In this document: positions 12,742 through 16,846 of the stretch, piece by piece
Layout of the letters: every line of letters begins with the position of its first letter
Position numbering within the stretch: the stretch's first letter is position 1
Source: Dehalococcoidia bacterium
GTDB lineage: Bacteria > Chloroflexota > Dehalococcoidia > Lucifugimonadales > Lucifugimonadaceae
DNA length: 64,000 nt
NCBI GenBank assembly: GCA_022451965.1
Contig: JAKUNJ010000004.1
Coordinates: 1 to 64,000, forward strand
Direction: 5' to 3'
The notes under the pieces: generated by a model
The model's database searches: none
Told to the model about the DNA's origin: nothing
Seen by the model: the letters and a program-made list of their open reading frames with translations, nothing else
Program-made: the position numbers and the translations under genes

Positions 12742-13644
12742 ATGACAAAAAAATTTAAATTAAGAGTTCCTGCTTCATCTGCGAACTTAGGATCTGGGTT
12801 CGATTCTATAGGTGCATGCTTAGATATTTGGAATGAAATAAAGTTTTTTGAAGGTGAATTTCAAATTACAAATAAAGGATTTGGTGAAAAATCTTTTCCT
12901 AGAGACAAAAAAAACTTAATCTATAAATCTTATCTTCAAACTATTCAAATTCTGGGTAAATCTGAAAAAGAATTAACTATAAATTGTGATAATAATATCC
13001 CAAATTCCGGAGGTTTAGGAAGTAGCTCAGCAGCAGTGATCTCAGGAATTATGATAGCTTATGCAATAAATAATATTGATATGGAAAAAGATGAGGTCTA
13101 TCAAATAGCATCAGCAATAGAAGGTCACCCTGATAATGTTGGCCCTGCTATTTTTGGTGGAATAACAATAGGTTACAAAGATTATGATGAATGGCTCATA
13201 AGTTCGGTTAAGTTCAATAAAAACCTAAAAATAATATCTTTTGTGTCTGACCAGAAAATATCAACTCAAGAATCAAGGAAGAATCTTCCTGATGAAGTAT
13301 CTAGAAATGATTCAATTTATAACATATCTAGAGCTGCTTTACTTATAAATTCTTTGGCTAATGATAATTTTCAAAACTTGAAGTATGCCTTTCAAGATAA
13401 AATTCATGAACAATATAGAACCCCAATGATTAAAGGATTTTCAACTATATCCAATTCAGCAATTTCTGCGGGTGCATTGGCTACTTATCTTTCAGGATCA
13501 GGACCTACTATTTCAGCTATAGCTGAATCTAAAGAACTTACAATTAATTATGAAATGCTGGATGCAGCAAATAAACTTGGAATAAATGGTAATGGAATAA
13601 TTTGTAAAATATCAGAAATTGGAGCAAATTTAGTTGAAGAATAA
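12742..13644 (+). CDS. thrB: Homoserine kinase ThrB
   Basis: This is a 300-residue GHMP-superfamily kinase with the N-terminal VPASSANLGSGFDS motif, the ATP-binding loop NSGGLGSSSAAVISG near residue 90, EGHPDNVGPAIFGG near residue 130, and the C-terminal AYLSGSGPT-like motif (ATYLSGSGPT). It phosphorylates homoserine on the way to threonine. The gene begins 4 nt after proA and overlaps lysC by 11 nt, coupling aspartate-family and proline genes in one transcript. Homoserine dehydrogenase and threonine synthase are not in this window. Confidence 0.95.
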   Translation: MTKKFKLRVPASSANLGSGFDSIGACLDIWNEIKFFEGEFQITNKGFGEKSFPRDKKNLIYKSYLQTIQILGKSEKELTINCDNNIPNSGGLGSSSAAVISGIMIAYAINNIDMEKDEVYQIASAIEGHPDNVGPAIFGGITIGYKDYDEWLISSVKFNKNLKIISFVSDQKISTQESRKNLPDEVSRNDSIYNISRAALLINSLANDNFQNLKYAFQDKIHEQYRTPMIKGFSTISNSAISAGALATYLSGSGPTISAIAESKELTINYEMLDAANKLGINGNGIICKISEIGANLVEE

Positions 13645-14857
13645 AATCGTAGTTCAAAAGTACGGAGGTACTTCAATAGGAGATGTTGAAAAGCTTAAGT
13701 TAATAGCAAAAAAAATTTCTGACAAAAAGATTGAAGGCTATTCTCCAGTGGTTGTAGTTTCTGCTATGGGTAAAACAACTGATGATCTTGTAAATATGTC
13801 TGAGGAAGTTACTTTTAATAATAAAAAACCAGACCTTAGAGAAAAAGATACTTTGCTTTCTACTGGAGAATTAGTTTCTTCAACTCTTTTAGCAATATCT
13901 ATAAAGTCATTAGATAATGAAGTCATTAGTTTATCTGGCTTACAAGCTGGAATTACGACTGATAATATTCATGGTTCTGCAAGAATTTCAGATATTAACA
14001 CCTCTAGAATTATTGAAGAAATTCATCAAGGCAAAATAATAATTATTGCAGGTTTTCAAGGGGTTAATAATGAAGGTGATATCACTACTCTTGGTAGGGG
14101 AGGTTCAGATACAACGGCTGTAGCAATAGCTGCAGCTCTTGAGGCAGATTTATGTGAAATATATACTGATGTTGAAGGCATCTATACTACTGATCCAAGA
14201 GTTGTTTCAAAAGCAAAGAAATTAGATAAGATAAATTATGAAGATATGCTTGAAATGGCAGTTTTAGGTGCTAAGATGCATCCTAGATCAATTGAATTAG
14301 CGTCTATTTATAACGTCCCTGTATATGTAGCAGGTACATTTTCAGATAAAAGAGGTACACTTATAACCAAGGAAGGTGATATGGAAAATACAAAAACAGT
14401 TACTGGTATAGCTATTGAAAAAAAGGTTTCAAAAATTACAGTTAAAAAGATTAAGAATTTACCCGGTGTTGCTGCTTCAATTTTAAAGCCCCTTTCAGAC
14501 CAATCTATTAGTATAGATGTTATTGTTCAAAATACTCCATCTGATGGTTATATTGATTTCTCGTTCTCTCTTTCTGAAGAAGATCTTGGTAAAGCTTATG
14601 ACATTTTGATGAAAAATAATAATTTGAATTTCGAAGAAATAATAATGGGAAAAGGTTTTGCTAAAGTCAGCTTAGTTGGAACTGGCATGCAAAATGCCCC
14701 TGGCTATGCAACAGATATGTTTAATGCCCTTGGTACAAATAATATAACAATTGAAATGATAACTACATCTGAAATCAGAATAACCTGTTTGATTAATCAA
14801 AAAGACTTAGATTTAGCAGTTAACTCTCTTCATGATGTGTTTGAACTAGATAAGTAA
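13634..14857 (+). CDS. lysC: Aspartate kinase LysC
   Basis: The 407-residue monofunctional aspartokinase has the VVQKYGGTS start motif, LSTGELVSS near residue 76, GRGGSDTTAVA near residue 154 and VEGIYTTDPR near residue 180. Two ACT regulatory modules occupy about residues 265-405. It catalyses the first step to lysine, threonine and methionine and is usually controlled by end-product binding at the ACT domains. Translation begins at TTG 13634, inside the end of thrB; starting there leaves the KYGGTS motif close to the N-terminus, as in homologues. The next gene, recF, is convergent with only one intervening base. Confidence 0.95.
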   Translation: MKNKIVVQKYGGTSIGDVEKLKLIAKKISDKKIEGYSPVVVVSAMGKTTDDLVNMSEEVTFNNKKPDLREKDTLLSTGELVSSTLLAISIKSLDNEVISLSGLQAGITTDNIHGSARISDINTSRIIEEIHQGKIIIIAGFQGVNNEGDITTLGRGGSDTTAVAIAAALEADLCEIYTDVEGIYTTDPRVVSKAKKLDKINYEDMLEMAVLGAKMHPRSIELASIYNVPVYVAGTFSDKRGTLITKEGDMENTKTVTGIAIEKKVSKITVKKIKNLPGVAASILKPLSDQSISIDVIVQNTPSDGYIDFSFSLSEEDLGKAYDILMKNNNLNFEEIIMGKGFAKVSLVGTGMQNAPGYATDMFNALGTNNITIEMITTSEIRITCLINQKDLDLAVNSLHDVFELDK

Positions 14858-14858
14858 A

Positions 14859-16013
14859 TTAACCTTGCTTTATTGAACCATTTTTTATAGAAAAAAATTT
14901 TGCTTTATTTATTTTATTTCTATCTATTAGCGCTAAATCAGCGGTAGATAATAAGATTTGATCAAACCCCGTTATTTCATCTAATACTTTTTCTCTCATG
15001 ATTTCATCTAGCTCTGAAAAAATATCATCTAGTATTAGTATTGGCTTTGCTTTGACTATATTTTTAATTTCTTCTGCTTCTGATAATTTTAATGAAAGTG
15101 AAATTATTCTAGCCTGACCTCTTGAAGCAGTTATTGATGCAGGTGAATCATTAAAGAAAATTCCAAAATCATCTCTATGGGGGCCTAGAGTTGTATTTCT
15201 TTGATCAATATCCCTAGATCTACTTTTATTCAAAGAAATAGAAAAGAATGATTTAATTTTTTCTGGTGAATTATATTCTTGAAAAAAATTATCATTTTCT
15301 ACTCTCCCTATTTTAGGAAGGTACTTTATATCTAGTCTAATGTTTTTATTGAAACCCAATGCAAAATTTCTGGAATTCTCTCTTATTTTTAGGAGTATTT
15401 TATTTCTTTCATAAAAAATATTTGATGCTTCTTCGGCTAATCTATCATCCCAAAAATCTAACTCATTTTCATTACTTCTTCCATCCTTAATGTTTTTTAG
15501 TAAACTATTCCTTTGAAATATGACTTTTTGATATCTTTGTAAATTTTTTACATGCTCATTATTTATTTGGCTTAGCAATATATTTATATATTTTCTTCTA
15601 ACTAAGGGAGGCCCCGAAATTATAGCTATATCATCTGTGTCAAAGAAAACTGAGTTTATATTTCCAACAAATTCTTGAGTTGTTACGATCACACCATTTA
15701 TTCTAAATGTTTTATCTAGGTCTTTAGCCTGAGAAATATTGTAATCAACTTGAGCTTTTATATTATGGTTATTTTCTTCAGCTATACCTAAAATTTGTGC
15801 ATGTCCACCATTTTCAAGTAAATTATTATTTATTAAGAATTTATCGTTAGAAACTCTTGAGGATTTTGCTATCGAAAGTAAATATATTCCTTCAAATAAG
15901 TTACTTTTGCCTTGCCCATTATCGCCATAGAATACATTGAAACCTTCTTCTAAATCCATTGTAGAACTTATATGATTTCTATAATTAGATAGTGCTAAAC
16001 TCTTAATTTTAAT
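14859..16013 (-). CDS. recF: DNA replication/repair protein RecF (probable ATT start)
   Basis: The ORF from the first ATG (15959) gives 366 residues: a Walker A loop GDNGQGKS close to the start, the ABC-like signature region LSLKLSEAEE, and Walker B ILILDDIFSELDE near the C-terminus. RecF loads RecA at gaps through RecOR. Homologues begin with a beta strand and a LxLxNYRN segment before that ATG. The same frame reads exactly this upstream (IKIKSLALSNYRNH) and then meets a stop. The only codon giving a complete N-terminus is ATT at 16013, giving 384 residues. A conservative alternative is ATG 15959 with a truncated N-terminus. Confidence 0.88.
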   Translation of the reverse strand: MKIKSLALSNYRNHISSTMDLEEGFNVFYGDNGQGKSNLFEGIYLLSIAKSSRVSNDKFLINNNLLENGGHAQILGIAEENNHNIKAQVDYNISQAKDLDKTFRINGVIVTTQEFVGNINSVFFDTDDIAIISGPPLVRRKYINILLSQINNEHVKNLQRYQKVIFQRNSLLKNIKDGRSNENELDFWDDRLAEEASNIFYERNKILLKIRENSRNFALGFNKNIRLDIKYLPKIGRVENDNFFQEYNSPEKIKSFFSISLNKSRSRDIDQRNTTLGPHRDDFGIFFNDSPASITASRGQARIISLSLKLSEAEEIKNIVKAKPILILDDIFSELDEIMREKVLDEITGFDQILLSTADLALIDRNKINKAKFFSIKNGSIKQG

Positions 16014-16090
16014 ATTTTAGTCCGATCTATAGTTTTAATATATATGATAGATTTTTATCTTGAGTAAGTATCTTTTTTTTGAGGTAATTT

Positions 16091-16846
16091 ATGAATAAAT
16101 TAGTAACATTAGATCTTTGGCAAACTATCATGGGAGAATCAGATTTTTCTTCATTTTCACCTGATAGAAGAAAATTGAAATGTGAATCAATATATTTATA
16201 TCTAAAGAAATTTAATAAAAATTTGAAATATCAAGAAGTTCAAGATTCTCATGATAAGATTGTTTCTTTAATTGCTAGATATTCTAGATTTCATTCCGAT
16301 CTTTTGTTTGATGATTGGCTAATTATGCTAATTAGAATGATAGATAAAAAGAACAAATTTCAGCTAAATAATAAGCAAATTACAAATTTAGGTGAAATTA
16401 TTGATGAAATTTTTCTCACTTATCCTCCAGATATATTTGAGGGAACTTCAGACTTTTTAGATTATTTAATAAAAAATAAGTTTAAAATTGGAATAATTTC
16501 AAATACAGGATTTAACTCACCAAATGCTTATAAAAAATTACTGAGAAAAAATAACATTTACTATGATGTTTTATCCTTGTCTAATGAAATAGGTATTGCA
16601 AAGCCTAATTATAAGATCTTCAAATTAACACTAGAAAAAGTAAAAATAGAACCAAGTATTTCTATCCATATTGGTGATAATCCTGTTGCAGATATATTAG
16701 GAGCAACAAATTTTGGTATGGATGCAATATTGATTTCTAAATCTGGAAGAACTAAACCAGTAAATAATAATGTTCATCAAGTGATTGATAATATAGGATT
16801 GGCCAAAGAATCAATCTTATCTTGGGTAGATAAGCTTTCTAATTGA
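16091..16846 (+). CDS. HAD-superfamily hydrolase
   Basis: This 251-residue protein has the four HAD motifs. Motif I is LDLWQT, with the nucleophile Asp8 but Trp at the +2 position where Asp or Thr is usual. Motif II is ISNTG near residue 140, the Lys motif is AKPNYKIF near residue 170, and motif IV is HIGDNPVADILGA near residue 197. An alpha-helical cap lies between motifs I and II. Family members are phosphatases or dehalogenases; the Asp-X-Trp form is unusual for phosphatases, so activity is uncertain. The 3' end overlaps the convergent DUF1461 gene by 30 bp. Confidence 0.82.
   Translation: MNKLVTLDLWQTIMGESDFSSFSPDRRKLKCESIYLYLKKFNKNLKYQEVQDSHDKIVSLIARYSRFHSDLLFDDWLIMLIRMIDKKNKFQLNNKQITNLGEIIDEIFLTYPPDIFEGTSDFLDYLIKNKFKIGIISNTGFNSPNAYKKLLRKNNIYYDVLSLSNEIGIAKPNYKIFKLTLEKVKIEPSISIHIGDNPVADILGATNFGMDAILISKSGRTKPVNNNVHQVIDNIGLAKESILSWVDKLSN

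Follow-up and report, generated by a model that had tools for sequence, protein, structure and literature searches.

AUU as the predicted initiation codon of recF in a SAR202-type marine Chloroflexota, and AUH starts of recF across its family

The gene for translation initiation factor IF3, infC, starts with AUU in Escherichia coli, with AUC in Streptomyces and with AUA in Staphylococcus aureus. To our knowledge, very few bacterial genes have established AUU, AUA or AUC starts (together AUH, or ATH in DNA: ATT, ATA and ATC). One of them is pcnB of E. coli, whose AUU start is described as limiting the gene translationally (Binns and Masters 2002, as cited in PMC13009471). The conserved AUH starts of ccpN (AUA) and cvfC1 (AUU) in S. 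aureus have about 10% of AUG activity, the level given for AUA and AUU starts in this organism (PMC13009471). IF3 represses non-canonical starts, and the GTC start of sigR in Streptomyces sets the protein dosage through IF3 (PMC5472188).

The recF gene studied here lies in the window, a stretch of 64,000 nucleotides that was analysed as a whole. It comes from a SAR202-type marine Chloroflexota genome of 1.25 Mb and 30% GC, available as a draft assembly of 14 contigs (G000). It is near certain that recF is initiated at ATT 16013-16011, because of the position of this codon, its conservation, the Shine-Dalgarno spacing and its replacement by ATG in one relative (G017). The locus is laid out as follows.

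14859..16013, minus strand: recF coding sequence, 384 aa when read from ATT (translation, TIGR00611 and PDB matches)
16011..16013, minus strand: predicted ATT initiation codon of recF (start-column comparison and an entropy of 0.14 bits)
16017..16019, minus strand: in-frame TAA stop, two codons 5' of the recF ATT (sequence)
15957..15959, minus strand: internal ATG, residue 19 counted from the ATT and not the recF start (genus alignment)
16021..16024, minus strand: weak Shine-Dalgarno-like CGGA, 7 nt before the ATT, a 3-nt match in G000 (read from sequence)
16042..16049, minus strand: TATCATAT, a -10-like box about 30-40 nt 5' of the recF start (upstream sequences of all nine genus members)
16091..16846, plus strand: divergent HAD-like gene, so that recF is the first gene of its unit (ORF list)

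A lysC-like aspartokinase gene (13634-14857), which overlaps the end of a homoserine kinase gene, is called from TTG, a common start in this genome.

The minus strand reads TAA(16019-16017) AAT ATT(16013-16011) AAA ATT AAG AGT TTA GCA CTA TCT AAT TAT AGA AAT CAT. The translation around the ATT is *N-I-K-I-K-S-L-A-L-S-N-Y-R-N-H, followed by a complete RecF down to 14859. The product scores 264.2 bits against TIGR00611 (cut-off 172) with profile positions 1-335 matched, i.e. from position 1, and its best matches in the PDB comparison are RecF structures. The Walker A motif GDNGQGKS and the ABC-type DD/ELD motif ILILDDIFSELD both align with solved RecF. The earliest in-frame ATG, GTG or TTG is the ATG at 15959-15957, 18 codons 3' of the ATT. 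The first-pass annotation had stated that no standard start follows the upstream stop before the conserved segment is reached, which is true in G000 and also in all nine genomes of the genus. It had also placed the sole ATG, 15959, past the conserved N-terminal strand of RecF; this is correct, and a start there would remove the first strand. An N-terminally shortened RecF made from this ATG would have the merit of using the first standard in-frame start, but the residues 5' of Met 15959 are conserved, and the shortened protein would lack a segment present in solved RecF, which aligns from residue 4 in 5z67/5z69 and from residue 2 in 2o5v. Furthermore, the Met codon is missing in six of the nine genus members, where ATA, TTG, TTA or CTG is found instead; ATG occurs there only in G000, G001 and G006. 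Initiation at Met 15959 is thus refuted by the comparative data, most relatives having no Met at this place, and its probability is close to nil.

For the start column we compared nine species of the genus, including the MAGs Chloroflexi bacterium TMED70 and SAR202 cluster bacterium OSU_BB06, and a family sample of 50 members from 12 genera with G000 included; one genome (G124) and two phylum rows (G245 and G254) gave no usable motif. All nine genus members carry ATH, namely ATT in G000, ATC in G004 and ATA in the other seven. The family as a whole shows ATC in 23, ATT in 15, ATA in 11 and ATG in one, so that apart from G000 an ATH start is found in 48 of the 49 family species examined. The single ATG, in G017, stands in exactly the same column. 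The ATH of G031 and G069 comes straight after a stop codon. The third base broadly tracks composition, with ATC in GC-rich genera and ATT or ATA in AT-rich ones, and ATH is also found in GC-rich family genomes of 2-4 Mb. Beyond the family, the 39 relatives compared from the class have TTG (10), GTG (10), ATG (9) or ATH (10), and the other Chloroflexota classes have ATG (17), GTG (6) or TTG (3). Only initiation-type codons are found in this column, except in two rows from other classes (G269 and G224), which show another codon and are probably misaligned there. No RecF match above the cut-off was obtained in genomes of family f19 of the same class that are single-contig and 99% complete, and recF seems to be absent from them.

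Chance as the origin of the ATT column is excluded by the presence of ATH in 9/9 genus and 49/50 family members together with ATG, GTG or TTG in most outside relatives. By this comparison, AUH initiation of recF is predicted to be fixed throughout the family. The earlier proposal that recF opens at a non-standard ATT is borne out by the relatives, and the alignment of homologues that it called for gave no ATG in the start column of any family member other than G017. Its further remark that AUU would be unusual in recF holds for the literature that we found and fails inside the family, where AUH is the rule. A draft assembly of 14 contigs could contain a sequence or assembly error that made ATT from ATG, yet ATH stands in eight other genus assemblies and in 40 further family genomes with differing third bases. 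A sequencing error as the source of the ATT is refuted by these related genomes, and we give it virtually no weight.

The sequence around the column carries the signatures of an initiation site. In the 50 sequences from the family, amino-acid entropy drops from 2.9-4.0 bits over the twelve upstream columns to 0.14 at the start codon, and it is 0-2.5 further downstream. Each of the upstream columns contains in-frame stops, and the columns from the start codon onward contain none. In 42 of the 50 members, the 20 nt 5' of the start include a Shine-Dalgarno match of 4 nt or more, compared with 6 of 50 for a control window, and the spacing is 7-8 nt in 27 of those 42. Since recF has no standard in-frame start, its true start could also be sought upstream in another frame, joined to recF by frameshifting or other recoding. 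However, the upstream codons are unconserved and contain stops, the Shine-Dalgarno is spaced correctly for the ATH codon, and one species (G017) has ATG in the very same column, all of which make such recoding very unlikely. For most of the family loci that have flanks, the gene nearest upstream of recF is divergent, and coupling of recF to an upstream cistron is therefore unlikely. The -10-like box, if it serves recF, would give it a short leader.

Other genes of the genus were screened for similar starts by pairing 1.13 Mb of G000 with 1.24 Mb of G008 after removal of overlapping ORFs. Of the 898 ortholog pairs, 663 have ATG/ATG and 86 have TTG/TTG as their first shared start column. Pairs whose conserved N-terminus lacks a standard start in the two genomes alike are only a handful: infC, recF, a MerR-family regulator, a multihaem cytochrome c, a Na/Ca exchanger and a Methyltransf_28 protein. 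The infC gene (G000 C6:116684, plus strand; loci L127-L155) has a conserved ATA start in the family, e.g. ATA GCN ... TAT AGR GTT AAT, with an apparent TTG instead in G018 and G019, and serves as a positive control. The MerR-family regulator (G000 C5:116438, plus strand; L307-L328) has ATT or ATA in the genus, and in further genera of the family this column holds ATG or GTG. In the genus members read, the multihaem cytochrome c (G000 C5:101443-102189, minus strand; L337-L345), perhaps a subunit of alternative complex III, probably starts at ATC, ATT or ATA, usually preceded by a GGAGA- or AGG-like site. For the Na/Ca exchanger (G000 C4:100833-101834, plus strand; L346-L354), six members of the genus have ATA and three have ATG, so that a single genus alternates between AUA and AUG at this start. 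Predicted AUH starts are hence rare in the genus, yet not unique to recF, and those of recF and infC are seen family-wide.

Some further observations come from the same genomes. Genes named uvrB and sulfatase from sequence motifs only seem to be ATT-started in G008 (C8 and C6) and ATG-started in G000, where their partners are G000_C3_+_223411 and G000_C9_+_13787. The folD and Methyltransf_28 genes are further AUH candidates. In G008, several ABC-transporter matches occur twice with identical scores on contigs C6 and C14, which suggests redundant sequence in the assembly.

The initiation machinery looks ordinary. A change in the initiator tRNA was looked for in four family genomes and none was found, the anticodon arm being standard. 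IF3 of the family aligns over its full length with solved IF3s, and its discrimination residues seem ordinary as judged from alignments only. With a standard initiator tRNA arm and a full-length IF3, nothing suggests recoded machinery. A generally permissive machinery is possible, given the use of AUH by other genes of the genus.

What would such a start do? It is plausible that the AUH start throttles recF expression. The ordinary initiator tRNA would decode the AUU as fMet, initiation at an AUH codon would be about tenfold weaker than at AUG and limited by IF3, and the weak codon would keep the RecF copy number low. As infC itself is AUA-started in the family, production of RecF would come under the same IF3-sensitive regulation. 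E. coli normally contains about 50 RecF molecules, and a roughly 14-fold excess is toxic, an effect attributed to destabilisation of the replisome (PMC10287930). The toxicity of excess RecF lends support to a low-dosage reading, with the toxicity data coming from E. coli. Taken together, we consider it likely that recF is AUU-initiated within a family-fixed AUH pattern and that a weak, IF3-limited start would hold RecF at a low copy number.

The main rival to the dosage reading is drift in a permissive lineage: the AUU start would be real and have no regulatory role, being inherited by descent in slow-growing bacteria that tolerate poor starts. This fits the further AUH-started genes of the genus, the alternation of ATA and ATG in the Na/Ca exchanger and the common TTG starts, with 86 of 898 pairs TTG/TTG. 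However, AUH is kept at recF in 49 of 50 family members including the GC-rich genomes of 2-4 Mb, weak recF starts recur in the class (10 GTG, 10 TTG and 10 ATH of 39), and the changes of the recF codon seldom arrive at ATG. In particular, the RecF tree implies 11 or more changes of the start codon in the family, only one of them to ATG, a rough count only, since the tree contains N-terminal pieces for many rows. ATG is one base change from each ATH codon. One change to G among at least 11 corresponds to p ~0.08 if a third are expected to go to G (simple binomial), so that selection against ATG in recF is suggestive only and not decisive. On balance we regard drift without a role as improbable beside a dosage-limiting start. 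A dosage-limiting start could in turn belong to a wider arrangement, which we mention as a speculative and rather doubtful extension: the AUH starts of infC, recF, the MerR-family regulator, the multihaem cytochrome c and a few others would form a small regulon set by IF3 in SAR202-type Chloroflexota. If this were true, RecF dosage would be coupled to the state of translation initiation in the cell.

In the open-access literature that was searched, we found no earlier report of a recF with a non-AUG start or of SAR202 start codons. A start that is family-fixed and recurrent in the class turns recF into a replicated natural experiment on selection for weak initiation of translation. It also connects with the known toxicity of excess RecF, and the model of IF3-set dosage is directly testable. 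For annotation, standard gene callers will tend to mis-start recF and several other genes in these ocean bacteria.

To the known AUH-start genes (infC, pcnB, ccpN and cvfC1), recF seems to add a new case that extends over a whole family. Like recF, infC has AUH starts kept over a clade. infC is autoregulated by its own product, whereas RecF is no translation factor, which points to dosage or IF3 dependence and not to feedback. pcnB shares the AUU codon, but it is a single E. coli example in the account cited above, whereas recF keeps its AUH start throughout a family that belongs to another phylum. ccpN and cvfC1 have an extended and strong Shine-Dalgarno in S. aureus, while that of recF here is modest or weak, and recF, unlike them, is a DNA-repair gene. 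Finally, sigR and recF both have non-canonical starts, but the GUC of sigR is not an AUH codon and the gene encodes a sigma factor.
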